Source: Mesorhizobium sp. M1E.F.Ca.ET.045.02.1.1
GTDB lineage: Bacteria > Pseudomonadota > Alphaproteobacteria > Rhizobiales > Rhizobiaceae
Length of the DNA stretch: 64,000 nt
Direction: 5' to 3'
Assembly: GCF_003952485.1 (NCBI RefSeq)
Contig: NZ_CP034447.1
Coordinates: 496,001-560,000, forward strand
The position numbers and the translations under genes were made by a program. Position 1 is the stretch's first letter, and the number at the start of each line of letters is the position of its first letter. This document shows, piece after piece, positions 11,958 to 52,240 of the stretch. A model generated the notes under the pieces. The model was not told the DNA's origin and ran no database searches. It saw only the letters and a program-made list of their open reading frames with translations.

Positions 11958-12351
11958 ACGGCAGAAACGCCCCGCCCCCAATTTGGCTGTACCTGCGGCG
12001 TTCAGCGTACGTGACGACATGTGCGGACTTGTCCCAATTGCCATCCGAGTTGTGCGGAACAGTAGCCGCTGCGCTGTTCGCTTCAACCGCGTGATGCCGC
12101 TGACAGTAGAGGCGGCGGCTCGTCGAGCGAGGCTTCATTGTTCGGCTACTAAACCGGCTGTCCTTTGGTGGGAGTTGGTTTCGCCCAAGTTCTGGGCCTG
12201 GGGGGCGTCGGCCCGTTTCGCGGCACAGGCTCCTTCCACATCGTCGAGGCCGAGAAAGAGGGGCCACACAGCTCCCCCTGTATCACAATGCCCCGCCCCT
12301 CAAGCAGCTAGATACGACAGGTGACCTCAAATGAGGCGTCTTGCATGGCTT

Positions 12352-13560
12352 CTACACCTGCCTGAATGCCAGAACTGCGTTCGTGCCGCCCATGGCGAAG
12401 GCGTTGCTCATGGCGACGCGCACCTTGCGCTCGCGCGGCACATTGGGCGTGACGTCGAGATCGCAAGCGGGGTCTGGCTCGCGATAGTTGGCGGTCGGCG
12501 GCACGACGTCCTCTTGGATTGCCATCACGCAGGCGATCATTTCAAGCGCGCTCGCTGCGCCGAGGCAATGCGCGTGCGTGGACTTGGTGGAAGAGATGGA
12601 CATCGAATAAGCGTGATTTCCAAACACACGCTTGATCGCCGCCGTTTCAGTCTGATCATTGCTCTTGGTACCGGTGCCGTGCGCGTTGAGGTAGTCGACG
12701 TCCTCGGCATTCAGCCCGGCATCGGCAAGGCAGGCGCGCATCGCCGACGCTGGCCCCTCGACAGATGGCGCGGCGATGTGGAAGGCATCGGCGGAAAGGC
12801 CGACGCCGGCGATCTCGGCAAGAATTGTGGCACCACGCCTCGTGGCATGCTCGTAGCTTTCCAGCACGGCCATGCCCGCACCCTCGCCCAGCACCAGGCC
12901 CTTCCTATCGGCGGAGAAGGGCCGGCAGGTATCGGGTGAAAGCACGCGCATTGCTTCCCATGCTTTCAGCACGCCCCATGCGAAGGGTGCGTCGCTGCCC
13001 CCGGAAACCATTACGTCGGCCCGGCCCAGCTTGATCTGATCCACCGCCGAGGCGATCGCATGGTTGGCCGAGGCACATGCGGAGTTCACCCCGAACACCG
13101 GCCCGCGCAAGCCGAGGCGCAAGCTCACCTGGCCGGCGGCGGCGCTTGGCATCGTTTTGGGTACAGCGAGGATGCCAACTCGCCTCGCGCCGTCCAAAAG
13201 GAGGGCCCGGTAAGTTTCCTCCATTACATCCCAGCCCAAGCCGCCGACGCCCACTGTAGCGCCGAAGCGATGGGCATTCCCTTCGTCGCAGGAAAGTCCG
13301 GCCTGCCGCATGGCTTCGCGCGCCGCAAGCACGGCGAGCAAGCTGAAGCGGGCCATGGAGACGAGCTGCTTGCGATCGATGTCGTGCTCGGGCAGCGCCT
13401 TGATCTCAGCGCCGGTCATGCCCTCCAGGTCATGAAGCTCGGAATTGGCGAGCGGGCCGATGGCGGAGCGGCCTTCGCGGATCTCTTTCCACATAGAGGC
13501 GGCGTCAGTGCCCAGTCCGCACAGGCCGCCCACTCCGGTGATAACGACGCGCCTGTCCAT
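12352..13560 (-). CDS. nodE: NodE beta-ketoacyl synthase, copy 1
   Basis: NodE is a KAS-II-like condensing enzyme that, with NodF, makes the special polyunsaturated acyl chain of Nod factors. The 402-residue protein has the active-site Cys162 in [10 protein letters not shown] and the His motifs [12 protein letters not shown] and [11 protein letters not shown]. It starts directly after the nodF stop (TGAATG). Compared with copy 2 at 27438-28646 it differs at about 29 positions within residues 62-159 but only about three elsewhere. That block overlaps the central part of NodE known to govern host range in R. leguminosarum. The nearest promoter is the nod box at 14231-14280. Confidence 0.95.
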
Positions 13561-13842
13561 TCAAGCCTCCTTCGCAAGCAAGCCGCGGACGGCGTCCACG
13601 ACGTCGCCGACATTCTTGAGATTCGACCAGGCATCGGCCGTGTTCATGTCGATCTTGATGCCGTAGGCCTGTTCCACATCCCAGAGGACGTCCGCCAAAC
13701 CCAGCGAATCGAACCCGAGCGCGTCCAGTTCCGTGGCGATTGTTATCTCGCCGACGAATGACGCAGGCATTCCCTCACCGCTCTCCGACTCGGCGCGTTT
13801 CTTGATCAGGGCAATGACGTCCGTTGCGAATTGATCGGCCAT
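13561..13842 (-). CDS. nodF: NodF acyl carrier protein, copy 1
   Basis: NodF is the dedicated acyl carrier protein for NodE. It has 93 residues and carries the phosphopantetheine site GFDSLGLAD with Ser46. The start at 13842 follows AGGAAA; the longer open frame to 13950 lacks a site and extends into relic sequence. The protein is identical to copy 2 at 28647-28928. It is translated just before nodE with no gap. Confidence 0.95.
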
Positions 13843-13954
13843 TCTGTTTCCTGTCTTTCTTTCCCGCGTTTCGACCCGGACCCGCGGCTCAGTTCCTGAG
13901 GCGCGCCGCGTCGCGAAAGCCATCACGCTTGTGCGACTGACAAAGCCCAATGCT

Positions 13955-14130
13955 CATAAAGCCGGATCAGGTCCGGCCGATGTGTGGCGTAGGTGCAGTA
14001 TGACGATGTGAGCCGCTACACCGTGCGCGTCTCCCAGTCTGTCCATAGGCTCGGAAGAAGTCGGACAGTTTGACATGGCCGGTCAGTTGCAACTCCCTTT
14101 CCCAGCACTCCACTGCCCGGTAGAGCGCAT
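13955..14130 (-). pseudogene. nodA: nodA 5' relic, copy 1
   Basis: A start context AAGGAG...ATGCGCTC at 14130 is followed by frames that spell CWERELQLTGHV and SDFF, as in NodA. Frameshifts and an internal deletion of about 100 bases are present, and the rest of nodA is missing. It lies between the nod box and nodF, so the ancestral unit was probably nod box-nodA-nodF-nodE. Confidence 0.8.
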
Positions 14131-14230
14131 GAAAAATCTCCTTTCGGGCGGTTTCTTAAGACGCTCGCCACGCTATGAGGCAGTGGGGCATCGGTGTCCG
14201 TCAGGTGCTTCTGCCCATGCAGGATTCCAG

Positions 14231-14280
14231 AACATTGATGAAATCGTTTGTTTCGATGAAAGGCATCCACACTTTGGATA
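14231..14280 (-). promoter_or_regulatory. nod box 1, driving nodF1E1
   Basis: Read on the minus strand, this begins ATCCAAAGTGTGGATG, continues with ATCGAAACAAACGATTT and ends near CATCAAT, the pattern of NodD-binding nod boxes. It points leftward to the nodA relic and nodF1E1. A dead nodD head begins at 14282 on the other strand, the normal divergent arrangement. Confidence 0.9.
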
Positions 14281-14281
14281 A

Positions 14282-14812
14282 TTGACCACGCGTTTCAAAG
14301 GTCGTGAACTACATCTCCTCGTTGTGCTCGACGCACTCCCGACAGAGCGCAACCTCATGGGCGCGGCATGCAAGATTAACCGAGCCCAGCCGGTCATGAG
14401 TGCGGCCGGCGCTCGGCTGCTCGATTATTTGCGCGATGAGCTCGCGACCATGTCCGCGGAGGTATTCAAACTTAACGCTGCGTCCGGGAGCTCTTGCCCT
14501 CCAGTTCGCGACGCTCTCCTGCCCATCCAGTGCTCGTTTATTTCGTCGGATAGTTTGACCCGGCTCTACCGAATCGCCGCTTCAGGATCATTCTTTCCGA
14601 TTTCGTCACGCTCGTATTTCTGCCGCGTCCTACACCGATTAGGCGCGAACAAACTGAGCGCCTTGGAACCCGAACCCGTGCGTCGTGACCGGGAGCATCC
14701 GGGGCGAACTCATGCGCTCGGGGGCATCGCATCACCGGACGGCGACAGGCACGGTCGACCGGCATCTCGGCATCGGCTGGGAATTCGTCCATGGTCTGCA
14801 TTGACGACGCTT
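14282..14812 (+). pseudogene. nodD: nodD relic 1
   Basis: The frame from a TTG at 14282 reads [20 protein letters not shown], then SAAGARLLDYLRDELATM and DALLPIQCSFISSDS. This aligns with intact NodD at 16033. Frameshifts remove the effector-binding domain, although traces of the NodD frame can be followed to about 14800. An IS110 fragment follows. Confidence 0.85.
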
Positions 14813-14882: not shown

Positions 14883-15335
14883 CTACAGGTCAAACGCTTT
14901 CCGGGCCACCTGCAAAGTCTTCACCCGGCCGTACAGCGCCCAAGACCACTGATGTGATCGACAAGAGCCTTTTTGATAAATCTGCGCTATTCTCCTGTCG
15001 GCCGCAATCCAGACTTCTGGCAAGAAGCCGCTGGCATAGAGCTGCGCAAGAACGTCGGCGTCGATCGTCGTTTTGATCTTGGCATCGGCAATGATACGCA
15101 CCTGTTTCGGGTTGGCGATCCCCACCTTCTTCACATGCGGCGCAACCACAGCCGTAGCGGACGTCGCGTTGCCGGTGGCCTCGATCACCCCGACATCGTT
15201 CGGCGACAGCTTCGCGGCGAACGCCGCCAGCAGATCGCGCCGCATGTCGACGCGGCCGAGTCGCCTGAGCCTGCCATCCTCCCATGCCACTGCTTCGGCG
15301 AAGGCGCGGTGAATATCCAGTCCGATGATGCGCAT
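14883..15335 (-). mobile_element. IS110-family transposase, N-terminal fragment
   Basis: A 150-residue frame starts MRIIGLDIHRAFAEAVAW and contains VGVIEATGNAT, VGIANPKQVRIIADAK and IDADVLAQLYASGFLPEVW. This is the N-terminal DEDD catalytic half of IS110-family transposases. The C-terminal half is missing, so it is a remnant. Confidence 0.8.
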
Positions 15336-15972: not shown

Positions 15973-16022
15973 CTAAATTGTTAAAGTCGTTTGTTTCGGT
16001 TAAAGGCATCCATCCCATGGAT
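15973..16022 (-). promoter_or_regulatory. nod box 4, orphan, next to nodD
   Basis: On the minus strand it starts ATCCATGGGATGGATG and continues CCGAAACAAACGACTTT to AACAATTT, a recognisable nod box. It lies 11 bases before the nodD ATG in the divergent orientation. Leftward there is no nod gene, only IS481 and IS110 debris. It may now serve mainly for nodD autoregulation. Confidence 0.85.
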
Positions 16023-19306: not shown

Positions 19307-20593
19307 CTAACCGCGGAAAGCGGCTTCCATCCGTGACTGGTCCAATTCGCCTTCCCAGCGAGCGACAACGAGCGATGCCACCGCATTACCGACTAAATTC
19401 GTCAGCGCGCGGCATTCCGACATGAAGCGGTCCACGCCAAGAATTAGAGCCATTCCGGCAACGGGAACACTCGGCACGACAGAGAGAGTAGCGGCCAATG
19501 TGATGAAGCCGGCGCCGGTGACGCCTGCCGCACCCTTCGAGGAAAGCATCGCAATTAGCAGCAGGAGGATCTGATCGGCAATTGACAAATCTGTGTTCGT
19601 CGCCTGCGCGATGAAGAGGGCGGCGATCGTCATGTAGATATTGGTACCGTCCAGATTGAATGAGTATCCAGTAGGGATGACGAGACTTACGACCGAACGC
19701 GCGGCGCCGGCCTTCTCCATCTTCTCCATGAGCGAGGGCAGCGCGGCCTCCGAGGAGGACGTTGCCAGGACAAGCAGCAGTTCGTCCTTGATGTAGCGGA
19801 CAAGAGAAAAGATCGAGAAGCCGTTGTAGCGGCAGACCGCGCCGAGAACCCCGAACACGAAGAGGAAGGCGGTAAGATAGAACGTCGCGACCAGTATCGC
19901 GAGGTTGGCCACCGAACCGATACCGTATTTGCCGATCGTAAAGGCCATTGCGCCGAAGGCGCCGATGGGTGCAGCCTTCATCAGAATGCCGACGAGCTTA
20001 AAAATGGGGGCGGTAAGCGCCTGGAGAAAGGTAACGACCGGCCTGCTCGTCTCTCCGGTCATCGCCAAAGCAATGCCGAACAGGACCGAGAAGAACAAGA
20101 CTTGCAGGATGTCGCCTTCCGCGAAGGCACTGGCAATCGTTGACGGGATGATGTTCATCAGGAAGCTGGTCACGGACTGCTCGTGAGCCGTGGCCACATA
20201 GCCCTTAACGGCTTGGACATCGAGCGAGGCCGGATCGATGTTGAGGCCGGCGCCAGGCTGAACGATATTCGCGACAATCAGTCCGACAACGAGTGCAAGC
20301 GTCGAGAAGGTGAGGAAATAAACCATCGCCTTGGCGGCAACTCGGCCGACCTTCTGCAGATCGCTCATGCCGGCAATGCCGGTCGCAATTGTCAGGAAGA
20401 TGACAGGTGCGATAATCATCTTGACGACTTTGATGAAGGCATCGCCGAGCGGCTTCAGGCTCTGGCCGGTTTCCGGATAGAGATAGCCAATTGCGGCACC
20501 CAGGACTATGGCGGCAAGCACCTGCACGTAGGTCCGGGCAAAATGGCGCTTGCGGGGCGCTGCGATCGCGCGGGGGACTTTTGGAACCAACAC
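19307..20593 (-). CDS. dctA: DctA, C4-dicarboxylate transporter
   Basis: DctA imports succinate, malate and fumarate with protons or sodium and is the main carbon supply route for nitrogen-fixing bacteroids. The 428-residue protein has the DAACS features: several hydrophobic helices, the Ser-rich loop [14 protein letters not shown], the motif [14 protein letters not shown] and the C-terminal [18 protein letters not shown]. No dctBD genes are present. A consensus sigma-54 promoter lies 85 bases upstream at 20678-20693. Confidence 0.95.
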
Positions 20594-20978: not shown

Positions 20979-21740
20979 TTAAGCGTAGGAGCGCATCGAA
21001 TCTCCGAGGTCAAAAAATCTTGAATAAGGTCCGCGTGCGAAGTGAATCCGCAACTCGTCAAAGTTCTCCACCGTTTGATCCAGCGGTCGCGTTTCCTGGC
21101 GCTGCAGGATGGCGTTATCTGATGGCTCAAGCGCTGGAACGCCCAGGAAATCCCAAACCGCTCCCAAGCATTGGGCAGGTTCATGAAGAAGGCTCTCGTA
21201 TTCCATTACAAGCAGGTTGGTCGACGTGAAGGAGTCCATAACGCGAGCGTGAAAATCGTCGGCGGCTTTGAAATAAGCCTCACAGTCAGCGATTGACAAC
21301 CTGACGCTCGGTGGCCGAGCGGTATCGTTGTCCGAGCTGAACTTCAGCCACTGACCGCTTTCCCTGGCCTGCACAAAGGAACGGAGCGATTCCAATACGT
21401 TTCGGCGAACAACGAGGATGACCTTGAGTGCTGGCCAACGAGCTAATTCCGCAAAGAATGCTGGACGCTCGCGAAACTGAGGTTCATTGATCTTGCAGCC
21501 AAGATGCGTCACATTCTTGTAGTCGCGCATAGGGCAGCGCACATAGGCAAGCTCAAGAAGCTCGCGATCCGTGCCTAGCAGGCGATCCGTGCTGGGCCAA
21601 TTGGGATCATATTCGTTTAGCAACTCACCGTTACTCAAAACGGTCGGATGCTCGTTTAGCAATTCTTCTAAATAGTGTGTTCCGGTCCTTGGCATAGCAA
21701 GGATCACAAAAGGCTCAGGAGTTGGTTCGTTGTGGGTCAT
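20979..21740 (-). CDS. nodH: NodH, Nod-factor sulfotransferase
   Basis: NodH transfers sulfate from PAPS to the reducing-end sugar of Nod factors. The 253-residue protein has the 5'-phosphosulfate loop AMPRTGTHYLEELLNEHP and the 3'-phosphate-binding segment RRNVLESLRSFVQA. Residues elsewhere (GCKINEPQF, ETRPLDQTVENF) follow the NodH pattern. The start MTHNEPTPEPF at 21740 fits NodH alignments better than the ATG at 21755. It lies 287 bases after nodJ with no nod box between, so it may be read from the nodA promoter. PAPS-forming nodPQ genes are not in this window. Confidence 0.92.
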   Translation of the reverse strand: MTHNEPTPEPFVILAMPRTGTHYLEELLNEHPTVLSNGELLNEYDPNWPSTDRLLGTDRELLELAYVRCPMRDYKNVTHLGCKINEPQFRERPAFFAELARWPALKVILVVRRNVLESLRSFVQARESGQWLKFSSDNDTARPPSVRLSIADCEAYFKAADDFHARVMDSFTSTNLLVMEYESLLHEPAQCLGAVWDFLGVPALEPSDNAILQRQETRPLDQTVENFDELRIHFARGPYSRFFDLGDSMRSYA

Positions 21741-22027
21741 TGCATGTGTATCCAACTAAATAATGGCCGCGACGGTCTGGGGACGCGCACAAGAAGCTTG
21801 GCTGCTATCGCTTGAACGCTCCGGGTGGGTCCGCGCCTCACCACCCAGCCTGTACTCCGAGGTGTGGTCGCGAAGATGGGCGCGTGCCTGCAGCGGCTGG
21901 GTGGCGCCCGGCTTCGGCGTTGTTGTACCACTCGCGATTCCTGGCACACGCATGCCTCCGGGCCGCTGTGGGCAGTTTGCAATCCGGCATTGCGGACCTC
22001 CTTCTCGTTGATGGGCGTAGGTAAGCG

Positions 22028-25336: not shown

Positions 25337-25996
25337 TCAGGGATGTTGAGGAAGTGATCGGATTACAAATCCGCGGCCGTGCAATTCTGGAATTAGGCGT
25401 GACAACGCTGTCACCGTCTGGTCGCGCAGACTGGCTTGATTGCCTGGTTGCAATTCGTCGGGAGCGCACCCGTCGTGCAACAGCACGATTGCGCCCGGCC
25501 GGATATCGGCGAGCACTCTGTCGACGATGGCGTCAACGCCGGGGCGAGACCAGTCGCGTGGATCAATGGACCAATGGACGGGCGCCAATGCCGCACCCGC
25601 TGATGCAGCGATTACTTCTTCGGTCCAGATGCCATACGGTGCACGAAAGTACCGAACCATGGCCTGCGGGCAAGCCATCCCTATGACTCTGTTTGCCTCA
25701 ACTATCTGGCGGTCGACTTCGACGGGCCCGCATTTAGCCAGGTCCGGATGAGTCATCGTGTGGTTGGCTATACCGTGCCCGTCTGTAATAATTCGGCGAA
25801 CGAGTTCCGGCTCGTCGGCCGCGTAGGCCCCAACAACGAAGAAGGTCGCCGGCACCTGATGTTGCGCCAGCACATTGAGTATCTGCGGTGTGAAAAATGA
25901 ATTGGGACCGTCGTCAAACGTCAGATAGACGCTGCGCTCTGCAATGCCATCGGCATTGTCACTCTGCCCTTCGCATATGTAGTCCAGAGGCTTCAT
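25337..25996 (-). CDS. nodB: NodB, chitooligosaccharide deacetylase
   Basis: NodB removes the acetyl group from the non-reducing end of the chitin oligomer before NodA acylation. The 219-residue protein has the polysaccharide deacetylase motifs TFDDGP and the metal-binding HTMTH, plus RAPYG and LHDG later. The ATG at 25996 overlaps the nodA stop (ATGA), so the two are translationally coupled. The longer frame to 26038 lies within nodA and is not used. Confidence 0.96.
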
Positions 25997-26583
25997 AGTT
26001 CCGGACCGTTCCGGTCGATCAGGGTACCGGACGGCCACTCGTCCATCGAGCGTCCGATCGGCGAAACCAACACGAGTACGTCTTCCAGGCGCGTGGGCGG
26101 CAGGTCGGGATGCACGTCTGGACGGGTCGACCGTACGCGAACGCCCGACACAATGTTCGCGAGGCCGGCTCTGCAGAATCTTTCGACATGGTTTCGCAGC
26201 GCGTGCCGAACCGTGCCGAAAGCGAATGGAACACCCAACTGATGGAGCACTGGGTACGCCACGCGCATCGAAAAACCGATTCCGAGCCCTTCAAGATCCG
26301 GACGAACCGCGTACAGGCCCAATTCAGCGACGATCAAGTCGACCTCGCCAACTTTGATGAAGCGCCGCAGCATGCCGATGTGAGCCGCTACCCCATGCGC
26401 GTCGTAGCCGATTGCGCGGAATTCCGGCCTCGCGCCGGCCCAACTGCGGCCGCCTTCGAATGGCTCCGCGTTGAAGGCGCCAGTCCGTCCATAGGTCTTT
26501 CGAAAAAAGTCGGAGAGTTCGACATGGTCGGCCAGTTGCAACTCATTTTCCCAGCACAACTTCCACTCGACATTCGGGCGCAT
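25993..26583 (-). CDS. nodA: NodA, Nod-factor N-acyltransferase
   Basis: NodA attaches the fatty acyl chain to the deacetylated sugar. The 196-residue protein begins [20 protein letters not shown] and contains [20 protein letters not shown], both diagnostic. The ATG at 26583 is preferred to 26631 because NodA proteins start here and AGGT precedes it. It is the first gene of nodABCIJ, 230 bases downstream of a nod box. Two relics of a somewhat different nodA allele lie at 13955 and 29040. Confidence 0.96.
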
Positions 26584-26815
26584 GGAAGACCTCACCTTGT
26601 AGCTGTCCGGTTGAGATAAATGTCCAAGCATTGGTTAAATAATTGGCGTCGCCCCAACGGGGCGTAACTTGTGGAGACCGCCGAAAGACCAAGCCGCAAT
26701 GCAGATGCGACTGACTTTGTACGCCCCGCACACCAGATGATGCTCCTCGGATCCAACGCAACCATCGGAACTACCTATCTTTCCAACTTGAAGCGCTTCT
26801 ATGGGACCTGCAGCA

Positions 26816-26864
26816 AAAACGGTAAAATCCTTTGTTTAGATGAAAGGTATCCACGCTTTGGATA
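26816..26864 (-). promoter_or_regulatory. nod box 3, driving nodABCIJ
   Basis: On the minus strand it starts ATCCAAAGCGTGGATA and continues ATCTAAACAAAGGATTTT to TACCGTT, a good nod box. It points to nodA. A dead nodD head follows on the opposite side at 26880. Confidence 0.9.
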
Positions 26865-27010: not shown

Positions 27011-27437
27011 ACACGACGATTGATCAGAATCTGATTCGCGGGTTCAGTATCTTTTTCGTGTATCCAGCTCTGGGCTGTCCTTTGGCGGGAGTTAGGTTCG
27101 CCCAGGTTCTGAGCCTGGGGCGTCGGCCCGTTCGCCGCACAGGCTCCTTCGCACATCGTCGAGGCCGAGAAAGAGGTGGCCACACAGCTCCCCCTGTACT
27201 TTCCACCACCCGACACCAGAGCTCACCCAGGGCGCCGGCCTTGCTCACCTCAACGGATAGCGCACTCGCGCCGCTTCACGATTAAAAGAATTCTACAAGC
27301 AGATGCCTGTTTGATCGTGAGACGTCCGCTGCCAATTCCCGCATCGCAGAGGCAGCCAATAGCGCTCGCTTCACATAGTGGTCCGGCAAGCAGCTAGATA
27401 CGACAGGTGACCTCAAATGAGGCGTCTTGCATGGCTT

Positions 27438-28646
27438 CTACACCTGCCTGAATGCCAGAACTGCGTTCGTGCCGCCCATGGCGAAGGCGTTGCTCATGGC
27501 GACGCGCACCTTGCGCTCGCGCGGCACATTGGGCGTGATGTCGAGGTCGCAAGCGGGATCTGGCTCGCGATAGTTGGCGGTCGGCGGCACGACGTCCTCT
27601 TGGATTGCCATCACGCAGGCGATCATTTCAAGCGCGCTCGCTGCGCCGAGGCAATGCGCGTGCGTGGACTTGGTGGAAGAGATGGACATCGAATAAGCGT
27701 GGTTTCCAAACACACGCTTGATCGCCGCCGTTTCAGTCTGATCATTGCTCTTGGTACCGGTGCCGTGCGCGTTGAGGTAGTCGACGTTCTCGGCATTCAG
27801 CCCGGCATCGGCAAGGCAGGCGCGCATCGCCGACGCTGGCCCCTCGACAGATGGCGCGGCGATGTGGAAGGCATCGGCGGAAAGGCCGACGCCGGCGATC
27901 TCGGCAAGAATTGTGGCACCACGCCTCGTGGCATGCTCGTAGCTTTCCAGCACGGCCATGCCCGCACCCTCGCCCAGCACCAGGCCCTTCCTATCGGCGG
28001 AGAAGGGCCGGCAGGTATCGGGTGAAAGCACGCGCATTGCTTCCCATGCTTTCAGCACGCCCCATGCGAAGGGTGCGTCGCTGCCCCCGGAAACCATTAC
28101 GTCGGCCCGGCCCAGCTTGATCTGATCCACCGCCGAGGCGATCGCATGGTTGGCCGAGGCACATGCGGAGGTCACCCCGAACACCGGCCCGCGCAAGCCG
28201 AGGCGCAAGCTAAGATGGACGGAAGCGGCGCTGGGCATCACCTTTACTCCAGTGAAGAGTTCAGCACGGATTGCGCTACCCAAAAGCAGTGAGCGGTAAG
28301 TTTGTTCTGTTGCGTATGAACCGGTAAATCCAACGCCCACTGTCGCGCCGAAGCGATGGGCATTCCCTTCGTCGCAGGAAAGTCCGGCCTGCCGCATGGC
28401 TTCGCGCGCTGCAAGCACGGCGAGCAAGCTGAAGCGGTCCATGGAGATGAGATGCCCCCGGTTGATGTCGTGCTCGGGCAGCGCCTTGATCTCAGCGCCG
28501 GTCATGCCCTCCAGGTCATGAAGCTCGGAATTGGCGAGCGGGCCGATGGCGGAGCGGCCTTCGCGCATCTCTTTCCACATAGAGGCGGCGTCAGTGCCCA
28601 GTCCGCACAGGCCGCCCACTCCGGTGATAACGACGCGCCTGTCCAT
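27438..28646 (-). CDS. nodE: NodE beta-ketoacyl synthase, copy 2
   Basis: A second full-length 402-residue NodE with the same catalytic residues as copy 1 (Cys162 and two His). Residues 62-159 carry about 29 substitutions relative to copy 1, for example [10 protein letters not shown] instead of [10 protein letters not shown] at 101-110, with no length change. Outside this block the proteins differ at about three sites. It is intact and transcribed toward nodABCIJ from nod box 2 at 29390-29439. It could give a different acyl-chain preference from copy 1. Confidence 0.95.
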
Positions 28647-28928
28647 TCAAGCCTCCTTCGCAAGCAAGCCGCGGACGGCGTCCACGACGTCGCCGACATT
28701 CTTGAGATTCGACCAGGCATCGGCCGTGTTCATGTCGATCTTGATGCCGTAGGCCTGTTCCACATCCCAGAGGACGTCCGCCAAACCCAGCGAATCGAAC
28801 CCGAGCGCGTCCAGTTCCGTGGCGATTGTTATCTCGCCGACGAATGACGCAGGCATTCCCTCACCGCTCTCCGACTCGGCGCGTTTCTTGATCAGGGCAA
28901 TGACGTCCGTTGCGAATTGATCGGCCAT
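28647..28928 (-). CDS. nodF: NodF acyl carrier protein, copy 2
   Basis: A 93-residue NodF identical in sequence to copy 1, with phosphopantetheine Ser46 in GFDSLGLAD and AGGAAA before the ATG at 28928. Its stop abuts the nodE2 start. Identity of the two NodF proteins suggests recent duplication or gene conversion. Confidence 0.95.
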
Positions 28929-29039
28929 TCTGTTTCCTGTCTTTCTTTCCCGCGTTTCGACCCGGACCCGCGGCTCAGTTCCTGAGGCGCGCCGCGTCGC
29001 GAAAGCCATCACGCTTGTGCGACTGACAAAGCCCAATGC

Positions 29040-29290
29040 TCATAAAGCCGGATCAGGTCCGGCCGGTGTGTGGCGTAGGTGCAGTATGACGATGTGAGCC
29101 GCTACACCGTGCGCGTCGTAGCCGATTGCGCGGGCTTCCGGTCTCGCGCCGGCCCAACTGCGGCCGCTTTCGAATGGCTTTGCGTGGAAGGTTCCCAGTC
29201 TGTCCATAGGCTCGGAAGAAGTCGGACAGTTGACATGGCCGGTCAGTTGCAACTCCCTTTCCCAGCACTCCACTGCCCGGTAGAGCGCAT
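29040..29290 (-). pseudogene. nodA: nodA 5' relic, copy 2
   Basis: From ATG at 29290 the minus strand encodes, across two frameshifts, CWERELQLTGHV, LSDFFRAYGQTG, and [20 protein letters not shown] followed by [12 protein letters not shown]. The gene then breaks off. About the first 75 codons of NodA are represented. The residues differ from the intact nodA at several sites, so it came from another allele. Confidence 0.85.
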
Positions 29291-29389
29291 GAAAGTTCTC
29301 CTTTCGGGCAGTTCTTAAGACGCTCGTCACGCCATGAGGCAGTGGGGCATCGGTGTGCGTCAGGTGCTTCTGCCCATGCAGGATTCCAC

Positions 29390-29439
29390 AACATTGATGA
29401 AATCGTTTGTTTCGATGAAAGGCATCCACACTTTGGATA
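29390..29439 (-). promoter_or_regulatory. nod box 2, driving nodF2E2
   Basis: Identical in its core to nod box 1: ATCCAAAGTGTGGATG, then ATCGAAACAAACGATTT and CATCAAT on the minus strand. It points leftward to the nodA relic and nodF2E2. A nodD relic starts at 29441. Confidence 0.9.
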
Positions 29440-29440
29440 G

Positions 29441-29765
29441 TTGACCACGCGTTTCAAAGATCGTGAACTACATCTCGTCGTTGTGCTCGACGCACTTCCG
29501 ACAAGTAACCTCACGGGCGCGGCATGCAGGATCCGAGCCCAGCCGGTCATGAGTGCGGCCTTGCCGGGTCGGGCGATAGGCAGTCATGCCCTTCCTGCGG
29601 GTCAAGCACTCCGAAAAAACATTTCCCCCATAAATGCTAGATCTTCCGCTGCCTTTTCGCGTCACAGGCCGTCAAACGTCCGGCCGTTCACAACAGTGAT
29701 CCGGCAAGTGTTTGGCTGCGCGAGACGATGCTGCAGGGAGTCGTCCTGCATGGCACTTCGCTATG
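29441..29765 (+). pseudogene. nodD: nodD relic 2, head joined to tail
   Basis: The head reads FKDRELHLVVVLDALP and then shifts. After about 29560 the sequence jumps to the NodD C-terminal region (traces of [16 protein letters not shown] and of [15 protein letters not shown]). The whole middle of nodD is deleted. Confidence 0.8.
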
Positions 29766-32926: not shown

Positions 32927-33365
32927 AAGGCTTCGCGGCCGGTACGAGGCGCATCCCTCCTCCGAAGCAGCACGCCCAAGTATCATCACAAGCCCCGAGC
33001 GCTCGCGTTCGGCGATGTCCAATTTCCGACAATGTCGGAATACAGTCAGATCTGCTGGATTGACTTTAAATGGTTTTCTCATTTGGCACAGCGCATGCTG
33101 GTTATCCGCAAACACGTGACCGACCAACAAGAAGTCGCATGATCACCTCACCAAAACATACAGCCGCGGAACAATCACTTGGCCCGAACTTGCTTATCGC
33201 CCTCCCCGTCACCACAACCGGAGCCATCCATGTCTGACGGGCTGCCCAGGATACCTACTGCGACCGCGCTTGCCCGGTGACGACCGCTCCGGCTCCGCCC
33301 GTTACCGACGAGGCAAAGTGACGGATTTCCTGCTTTTCAACGACATGGAGGTGGTTGTCATTCCC
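32927..33365. repeat. NifA-promoter repeat, copy A
   Basis: About 440 bases that recur at 50971-51410 with small differences; a 65-base part also recurs at 42203-42267. The unit holds a complete NifA promoter and the head of a gene related to M16 peptidases. Confidence 0.9.
33016..33099 (+). promoter_or_regulatory. NifA/sigma-54 promoter in repeat copy A
   Basis: TGT-N10-ACA at 33016-33031 (TGTCCAATTTCCGACA) and TGGCACAGCGCATGCT at 33084-33099. Both the GG/GC cores and the roughly 85-base spacing are right for a NifA promoter. It now leads into broken gene heads and then the Ntn hydrolase at 33551. Confidence 0.82.
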
Positions 33366-33480
33366 GCTGGGGGACAGACTCGGCCTGTTCAAGGCATTGC
33401 GCGAAGGCGGCAAGATGACGGCCACCCGTGCGCGAACTCAAGGAGCGCAGCCTGTATCGTGTATCAGGCAAATAGGCCGT
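33139..33480 (+). pseudogene. M16-peptidase-like head joined to a methyltransferase head
   Basis: From ATG at 33139 the frame begins MITSPKHTAAEQSLGP and, after shifts, reads PVTDEAKVTDFLLFNDMEVV, which resembles the N terminus of M16 zinc proteases. It joins at about 33366 to GDRLGLFKALREGGKMTAT, the winged-helix start of a class of SAM methyltransferases. Neither gene is complete. The longer body of the methyltransferase is at 51412-52240. Confidence 0.6.
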
Positions 33481-50970: not shown

Positions 50971-51410
50971 AAGGCCTCGCGGCCGGTTCGAGGCGCATCC
51001 CTCCTCCGAAGCAGCACGCTCAAGTATCGTCACAAGCCCCGAGCGCTTCGCGTTCGGCGATGTCCAAATTCCGACAATGTCGGATACAGTCAGATCTACT
51101 GGATTGCGTTTGAATGGTTTTCTCATTTGGCACAGTACATGCGGGTCATCCGCAAAACACGTGACCGACCAACAAGAATTCGCATGATCACCTTACCACA
51201 ACATACAGCCGCCTCGGAACAATCACTTGGCCCCTGATCGCCCGCCCCGGCACCACAACCGGAGTCATCGATGTTCTGACGGGCTGCCCTAGGATACCTG
51301 CTGCGACAGGGCTTGCCCTGGTGACGACCACTCCGGCTCCGCCGGTTACCGACGAGGGCAACGTGACGGATTTCCTGCTTTTCAACGGCATGGAGGTGGC
51401 TGTCATTCCC
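50971..51410. repeat. NifA-promoter repeat, copy C
   Basis: About 440 bases matching copy A at 32927-33365. It lies on the far side of gltBD, so gltBD sits between copies B and C. The right end joins a methyltransferase relic at a different point from copy A. Confidence 0.9.
51061..51143 (+). promoter_or_regulatory. NifA/sigma-54 promoter in repeat copy C
   Basis: TGTCCAAATTCCGACA at 51061-51076 is followed by TGGCACAGTACATGCG at 51128-51143. The predicted start is near 51154 and the activator site at about -86. The promoter appears complete but leads only into pseudogenes. Confidence 0.82.
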
Positions 51411-52240
51411 GACCACCGAAGCGAGCGACAAATTCTATCTCAACGCCGAGCAAGAGCTGGTGTTCGCCGATGAAGACAGCCCGGCCTTCATGGCAGGCGC
51501 ATTCGAGTTCCTGTCCGCGCTGTGGCTCGATGAAGAAAAGGTGAGGCAGGCATTCCGTCCGGCAATGGCGTCGGGTGGCACGATCATAGCGCGTGTCTGT
51601 TTCGCGGTACGGAACGGTTCTTCCGTCCAGGCTACAATGCCAATCTGATCGACTCCTGGCTGCCGGCCTTGGAGGGCGTCGTCGAGAAGCTCGAACGCGG
51701 CGTGGACGTCGCGGATGTTGGATGCGGTCATGGTAGCATCGACCGTGCTCATGGCACAGGCCTTCCCCAATTTCGCGCTTCGTCGGCTTCGACTATCATG
51801 CCCCTTCGATTGAGCGCGCCCGCAAGGCGGCCGAGGTAGCCGGCGTCGGCGTCAACACGCGGTTCGACGTCGCCGCCGCCAAGAGCTATCCCGGAACCTA
51901 CGACCTCGTCACATTCTTCGATTGCCTTCACGACATGGGCGACCCGACGGGCGCCGCCACCCATGTCCACGGATCGCTCAAGCCGGATGGCACGTGGATG
52001 ATCGTCGAGCCGTTCGCGCATGATCATCTGGCGGCGAACCTCAATCCCGTCGGACGCGTTTACTATGCCGCTTCCACGTTCGTGTGCACGCCCGCGTCCG
52101 TGTCGCAGGAAGTCGGGCTCGCGCTTGGAGCCCAGGCCGGTGAGGCGAGGCTGCGCAAGGTGGTGACCGGTGGCGGCTTCAAGCGATTGCGTCGCGCCGC
52201 GGAGACACCGTTCAACATGGTGCTGGAGGCCCGCCCTTAG
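51185..52240 (+). pseudogene. M16 head joined to SAM-methyltransferase body
   Basis: From ATG at 51185 the frame begins MITLPQHTAASEQSLGP and, after shifts, reads VTDFLLFNGMEVAVIPDHR, an M16-peptidase-like head. At about 51411 it joins DKFYLNAEQELVFADEDSPA, then FLSALWLDEEKV, VADVGCGHGS and SLKPDGTWMIVEPFAHDHLA, the body of a Rossmann-fold methyltransferase with motif I VGCGHG. Several frameshifts are present. Confidence 0.7.

Follow-up and report, generated by a model that had tools for sequence, protein, structure and literature searches.

The stretch of 64,000 nucleotides analysed here (the window) lies within a single-contig genome of 7.35 Mb, and its source strain is probably a chickpea-nodulating bacterium. 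It holds two copies of the nodulation gene nodE that are almost identical outside a short module. In our reading, which we hold with a probability of roughly two in three, ectopic conversion homogenises the two genes in all but this acyl-specificity module, and both alleles are kept, giving mixed acyl chains. The reading starts from a mosaic pair with polymorphism shared between the loci, fixed modules, cores of two different classes and a shared promoter element. Neither NodE with its variable central part nor gene conversion is new; among titles and abstract openings of the open-access literature we found no description of a P/V nodE pair in chickpea rhizobia with the module alone exempt from homogenisation.

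Both genes are on the minus strand and encode 402 amino acids: the P copy at 12352-13560, with Gly107 and Val133-Pro134, and the V copy at 27438-28646, with Phe107 and Gly133-Val134. A sequence-only reading of the window had reported equal lengths and counted the differences by eye, and the alignment gives the same picture: 32 residues differ, 29 of them among the 98 at positions 62-159 and 3 among the other 304 (residues 27, 287 and 370). It had described positions 62-159 as one block. The 29 differences are indeed there; however, they are not evenly spread, but form two short blocks with a near-identical stretch between them.

In the pairwise DNA comparison the copies differ at 66 of 1209 nucleotides. 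The small 5' block, gene nucleotides 184-209 (codons 62-70), holds 8 differences; it lies at 13352-13377 in the P copy and, as placed by comparison with the P copy and across genomes, at 28438-28463 in the V copy, both on the minus strand. The large core block, gene nucleotides 303-435 (codons 101-145), is 38% divergent (50 of 133 nucleotides); it occupies 13126-13258 of the minus strand in the P copy and 28212-28344 of the same strand in the V copy, where comparison with the P copy, comparison across genomes and the tree of the core all bear on it. Outside the blocks there are isolated differences at nucleotides 81, 237, 476, 859, 945, 1089, 1101 and 1108.

Each nodE lies directly 3' of its own nodF, with a nod box upstream of the unit, and all these features are on the minus strand. 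The nodF genes, at 13561-13842 in the P unit and 28647-28928 in the V unit, match at every nucleotide and encode an acyl carrier protein of 93 amino acids with a DSL site, so the NodF proteins are identical, as had been claimed. The nod boxes of the P unit (14234-14279) and the V unit (29393-29438) are also identical, with 3 mismatches to the consensus and a mean of 0 matches in 100 shuffles; a looser nod-box pattern had a sole match, which was unrelated. Between nod box and nodF each unit carries a relic of the 5' end of nodA, at 14032-14130 in the P unit (approximate ends, set by eye) and at 29081-29268 in the V unit, the latter 86% identical to 26367-26557 inside nodA. By sequence comparison the whole duplicated unit of nod box, nodA relic and nodFE spans 12301-14407 at the P locus and 27387-29560 at the V locus. 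The gene nodA itself (25993-26631, minus strand) adjoins the V unit and has a separate nod box upstream, the own box of nodABC, at 26818-26863 of the minus strand with 4 mismatches.

As direct repeats on either side of nodABCIJ, the two units could recombine by a crossover that would remove the core nod genes, which may matter for the stability of the element. The nodA-nodF-nodE operon of M. huakuii 7653R has the same order, with an intact nodA at the place where the window's units have the relic. Given the nod box and the broken nodA start in the units and the intact gene in 7653R, the nodFE units of the window may descend from such an operon. The 3.2-kb stretch examined in 7653R contains one V-type NodE, whereas the window strain has two nodE.

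Both proteins belong to the KAS family. Against TIGR03150, the equivalog profile of housekeeping FabF, the NodE copies score 434.5 and 413.5 bits, under the cut-off of 493.75, and against NF005589, a broader KAS II subfamily, they score 430.4 and 408.2, above the cut-off of 387; in the profile search neither copy matched a NodE-specific profile. The catalytic residues are the same in both copies: C162, H294, K326 and H331 are invariant across 30 aligned sequences that include the two, and C162 aligns with the FabF cysteine.

The sequence-only reading had proposed a dN/dS comparison along the gene, and a comparison of this kind shows clearly that the divergence is not uniform. Between the P and V genes pN is 0.29 and pS 0.56 in codons 101-146, against 0.004 and 0.017 in codons 162-402. 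The core value is about the same as the synonymous divergence among NodE genes of different species in these codons, 0.53. Since pS is as high as between species, and an origin in place is very unlikely on a duplicate that is about 99% identical, we take the core divergence as a mark of recombination. Chance is excluded by the contrast between 0.56 and 0.017 together with the same two-core difference recurring in other genomes.

One could instead suppose that the duplication is recent and that the block was created later, by hypermutation in situ or by positive selection, as the differences are concentrated and 29 residues have changed. We regard this as highly improbable: the core pS is at the level of distant NodE genes, far from that of codons 162-402, and the two cores lie in different parts of the NodE tree. 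In-situ hypermutation is rejected in the main by the synonymous saturation, and with pN 0.29 and pS 0.56 the block is without unusual positive selection. The adenine-specific changes expected at the target of a diversity-generating retroelement are not seen: the changes between the copies involve all four bases, and synonymous sites are saturated.

In a set of 42 NodE sequences, codons 101-146 rank first among 11 segments in pN/pS, with 0.369, the whole gene having 0.214. The chromosomal NodE-like paralogue (51 sequences, same genus) has 0.238 in this segment against 0.201 for the whole gene, and there segments 1-57 and 73-100 clearly exceed 101-146.

The ancestry of the two cores was studied with trees of 54 rows, including 3 chromosomal paralogues, and of 46 rows, picked to represent types. 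In the flank tree P and V are sisters (SH-aLRT 100) beside NodEs without Pro134. In the core-only tree an AU test rejects them as sisters (p 0.007): the V core nests among the non-Pro NodEs (95/99; 99/93 for the inner group), and the P core is among the Pro134 NodEs, without a resolved placement there. The allele replacement that the sequence-only reading had offered as an alternative to conversion therefore stands in part: one core entered by recombination at some time, as the cores are old and of different NodE classes, and the homogenised flanks are best put down to conversion. In the tree of the flanks the pair stands next to the V-type clade (SH-aLRT 87), which favours the P core as the import; conversion that carried V-locus flanks into the P locus could weaken this reading.

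The same two types separate biovars of R. leguminosarum. NodE of bv. viciae UPM791 is V-type (F107, GV at 133-134), and NodE of bv. trifolii TA1 and WSM1689 is P-type (G107, AP at 133-134). Over the core, the P copy has 65% amino acid identity to trifolii TA1 and 61% to viciae, and the V copy has 70% to viciae UPM791 and 50% to trifolii. The host-range link drawn earlier from R. leguminosarum is strengthened in that the two cores correspond to the difference between bv. viciae and bv. trifolii. Further, codons 101-146 are the least conserved of eight segments (57%) when UPM791 and TA1 are compared. The enzyme is the same in both systems, but in R. leguminosarum the two types occur in different biovars, and in the window's strain both occur together, on otherwise homogenised genes.

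The P core is nearer to Oxytropis/Astragalus mesorhizobia than to bv. trifolii: strain AR07 has 72% amino acid and 78% nucleotide identity, or 79.5% of nucleotides over a slightly longer stretch. A recent donor of either core was not found in the proteins searched, where the nearest sequences outside the chickpea group reach 79% (P) and 76% (V), nor in the plasmids searched, where the corresponding DNA values are 79.5% and 75.3%. The chromosomal NodE-like paralogue was rejected as donor of the P core, as the 56.5% amino acid identity of its core is below that of AR07 (71.7%) and Sinorhizobium sp. 8-89 (73.9%).

The acyl specificity of NodE is a textbook determinant of host range, studied by swapping viciae and trifolii genes. 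Bloemberg et al. are said to have found in 1995 that a central domain of R. leguminosarum NodE determines the hydrophobicity of the acyl chain. In KAS dimers a part of the segment of codons 101-146 completes the pocket of the partner subunit. NodE residue 107 aligns with FabF Ile108 (mature numbering), which is named together with F202 as a gating residue of the acyl pocket in the available text of PMC7138838. With residue 107 opposite a gating residue, it is plausible from the alignment that Gly107 versus Phe107 acts as a switch of pocket depth. Structure models of the two copies, made from 30-row alignments, were unusable (mean pLDDT 35.6 and 38.4), and what we say of the pocket comes from the alignment.

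The type does not simply track the presence of unsaturated acyl chains. R. tropici CIAT 899 is reported to be without alpha,beta-unsaturated acyl chains (PMC9048898, as far as its available text goes), and its relatives in our sample have P-type NodE. M. huakuii has both types: 7653R is V-type, and a contig that we take to be NZ_CP050299 is P-type. For chickpea rhizobia, titles and abstract openings of the open-access literature gave no acyl products of Nod factors.

How general the pair is can be seen from other genomes. Among 146 genomes of the genus, 25 have a nodE at least 90% identical, and in 19 of these it is present twice, at a spacing of about 15-16 kb. Each of the 8 single-contig genomes with chickpea-type nodE carries one P core and one V core, and the locus that holds the V core does not vary among them; in the window it is the one next to nodA. 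The names recovered for many of the nodE-carrying genomes are those of strains of the.Ca. series and of WSM43xx. The.Ca. strains we take to be the chickpea isolates of Greenlon et al. That study is described as one of Cicer-nodulating rhizobia in the available text of PMC8090884. The P/V pair is thus typical of chickpea-symbiont Mesorhizobium.

Another 11 genomes with two copies are drafts: 2 are P/V, 4 V/V and 5 P/P. Real allele loss in the nine like-like drafts was set aside, as these are probably the result of assembly (bubble) collapse, a reading made from the assemblies rather than from the raw reads. It is suggested by three strains, WSM4306, WSM4311 and WSM4313, that come from a set of 11 field isolates said to carry ICEMcSym1192; their assemblies were made with SPAdes from MiSeq 2x250 reads (PMC8090884, available text). 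Symbiosis genes are reported to be near-identical in such ICE recipients (PMC11837538, available text), yet by their cores WSM4306 is P/V, WSM4311 V/V and WSM4313 P/P. In the drafts of WSM4313 and M2D.F.Ca.ET.226 both copies combine a V-type small block with a P core.

That short-read assemblies seem to garble the pair in this way might raise the question whether the arrangement in the window is itself an artefact of assembly or recombination. This is scarcely credible, since all 8 single-contig genomes have the same P/V arrangement at fixed loci. The drafts also suggest that short-read assemblies of chickpea rhizobia often misreport nodE, and surveys of nodE alleles from such assemblies may mislead.

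To compare the loci, we built an alignment of the units from the 8 single-contig genomes and from the 2 P/V drafts, which represent five lineages, using the columns present in the window's V unit. The nine like-like drafts and six genomes in which one chickpea-type copy was found were excluded. The two P/V drafts were retained for being P/V, and what we say about retention of both types rests on the 8 single-contig genomes.

Across the five lineages 84 sites between -949 and 1299, relative to nodE, are fixed for different states in P and V. Of these, 47 are at 318-435 and 7 at 186-209; the rest belong to the outer edges, 14 on the 5' and 16 on the 3' side. At -916 to 185, 210-317 and 436-1260 there are 0 such sites, so that the blocks are flanked by about 1.1 kb on the 5' side and 0.8 kb on the 3' side without fixed differences. 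In contrast to the fixed blocks, 46 columns between -860 and 1230 have the same two states at both loci, 11 of them belonging to one indel; within the large block the shared polymorphic columns are 303 and 330 only. This polymorphism shared between the loci is what points to ectopic conversion. That conversion acts on the flanks and leaves the block apart, as first proposed from the window, is borne out by the 0 fixed sites in the flanks against 7 and 47 in the blocks, and by the 46 shared columns.

Within one genome the P and V cores differ at 48-50 of 138 nucleotides, and same-type cores of different genomes differ at 0-2. In the flanks, paralogues of one genome are about as close as orthologues. 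The mean number of differences in the 5' flank is 11.6 between P and V within a genome, 12.4 between P units and 16.7 between V units, a modest signal (8 of 120 permutations, five lineages). In the 3' flank the corresponding means are 4.2, 7.4 and 5.6, again modest (4 of 120 permutations, five lineages).

Traces of conversion can also be followed in single columns. At 8 columns the V unit of the window's genome agrees with its own P unit and departs from the V units of all four remaining lineages. Five of them lie 5' of the large block (-322 and -321, which are one indel, -316, -63 and 54), and three lie 3' of it (442, 786 and 1113). Compared with genome G074 alone there were 25 candidate sites; with polarity set by three further lineages as reference, 15 had changed in G074, 2 were mixed and 8 stand. 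The sample of five lineages is small, and the P unit of G074 is identical to that of the window's genome. A second assembly (G087) has a V copy that differs by 5 nucleotides from that of the window and shares its states at 54, 442 and 786.

The cores could also persist passively. Once a divergent core had entered, mismatches would stop the conversion tracts at it, and the two cores would then remain without selection and might do the same job. The longest identical run inside nucleotides 303-435 is 11 nucleotides, short for starting recombination, and the pN/pS of the P and V cores is near the family average for the region, with no sign of accelerated change. Against this, flanking homology of about 1.1 kb and 0.8 kb should let one tract replace a heterologous stretch of some 130 nucleotides, and in the window's genome P-like states stand on both sides of the unconverted block of the V unit, at the 8 columns given above. 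Due to this long homology on both sides and the P-like states that flank the block, we consider a passive persistence rather unlikely. It is also at odds with both types being kept in 8 of 8 single-contig genomes, and with the types matching the classes that separate host groups in R. leguminosarum.

The preferred reading, conversion around two alleles that are both kept, can be put as follows. In the symbiosis region two nodulation operons are built alike (nod box, nodA relic, nodF and nodE) and go back to a duplication, and recurrent ectopic recombination, i.e. gene conversion, would keep nodF and most of nodE alike. The exempt NodE module, codons 101-146 together with 62-70, is retained as two old alleles, one per locus. 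It takes in residue 107 and extends towards the active-site Cys162; the V module (Phe107, Gly-Val at 133-134) is of the bv. viciae type, and the P module (Gly107, Val-Pro) carries the bv. trifolii signature. Both genes would be expressed, and the two enzymes would share the NodF-bound substrate and be controlled alike by NodD. Their pockets may favour different chain lengths or degrees of unsaturation, in which case the acyl products would differ and the strain would make a mixture of Nod-factor acyl chains. Selection would then purge recombinants that miss either module. Against mixed products, NodA may filter which chains get attached.

The copies might also divide their labour by expression or host, one serving chickpea and the other another host or condition, with overlapping products. 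Upstream edges and the spacing of the nodA relic do differ between the P and V loci in most lineages. However, an identical nod box stands upstream of all 20 nodFE copies in the 8 single-contig genomes and 2 P/V drafts, and among the same 20 copies nodF is identical or at most 3 nucleotides apart, which makes such a division improbable.

A more speculative extension of the conversion reading, which we put forward as doubtful, is that P and V subunits form mixed dimers. Conversion would keep the subunits interchangeable outside the pocket module, and KAS pockets are completed across the dimer. The pair would then amount to lasting heterozygosity of an enzyme encoded on a haploid mobile element, with P, V and hybrid pockets and a combinatorial acyl repertoire, the loss of which would be selected against.

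The behaviour of the pair resembles the concerted evolution of bacterial paralogues by gene conversion, where there is likewise shared polymorphism and no fixed difference outside the exempt part. It departs from the usual case in that one functional sub-domain escapes homogenisation, as seen in all five lineages studied.

Carrying both types is not limited to chickpea strains. Among 61 genomes typed for symbiotic NodE, 20 have P only, 18 V only, 13 P+V, 5 P+P and 4 V+V, and 1 was unreadable. Three of the 13 P+V genomes are drafts of M. amorphae, M. caraganae and M. temperatum, and the combination of P and V within a strain has apparently originated two or more times. In these Astragalus/Caragana-group strains (CCBAU01570, LMG24397 and SDW018, respectively) there is likewise one Pro134 and one Leu134 NodE per strain, and the nodE genes are 2.4-4.3 kb apart. 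Unlike the chickpea pair they are not homogenised, but differ by 11-23% in every segment compared; among the genomes typed here, homogenisation around the module was seen in the chickpea group only. R. yanglingense CCBAU01603 is described as having multiple nodE copies, with nodE conserved in its group, and the available text of that paper (PMC5702008) does not report the chickpea-type pattern.

With both module types apparently kept in one strain, on near-identical genes with the same nod box, the nodE pair offers a built-in control for the effect of about 45 residues. One can test directly which acyl chain chickpea perceives, and whether the strain gains by sending two.

The genome has a further pair of this kind on the chromosome, a NodF-like acyl carrier protein and a NodE-like KAS at about 1584500-1586013, adjoining an ORF that by eye resembles ureD. 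The KAS is 73% identical to NodE and has a match at E <= 1e-180 in 117 of 119 genomes of the genus. The pair is a possible housekeeping ancestor of nodFE.

A few other features of the window and its relatives were observed. A nod-box-like site with 4 mismatches lies at 15977-16022, without an obvious intact gene behind it, in a 390-bp stretch that is 80% identical to the upstream region of the P unit. An IS110-like fragment is found at 14883-15335. Between the nodE copies there are a dctA-like transporter (19307-20593) and a sulfotransferase-family protein (20979-21755), for which nodH-like is a guess. A 440-bp repeat, 90% identical, occurs at 32927-33366 and 50971-51411. Finally, in M. erdmanii USDA 3471 the nodE frame is interrupted after 23 codons.
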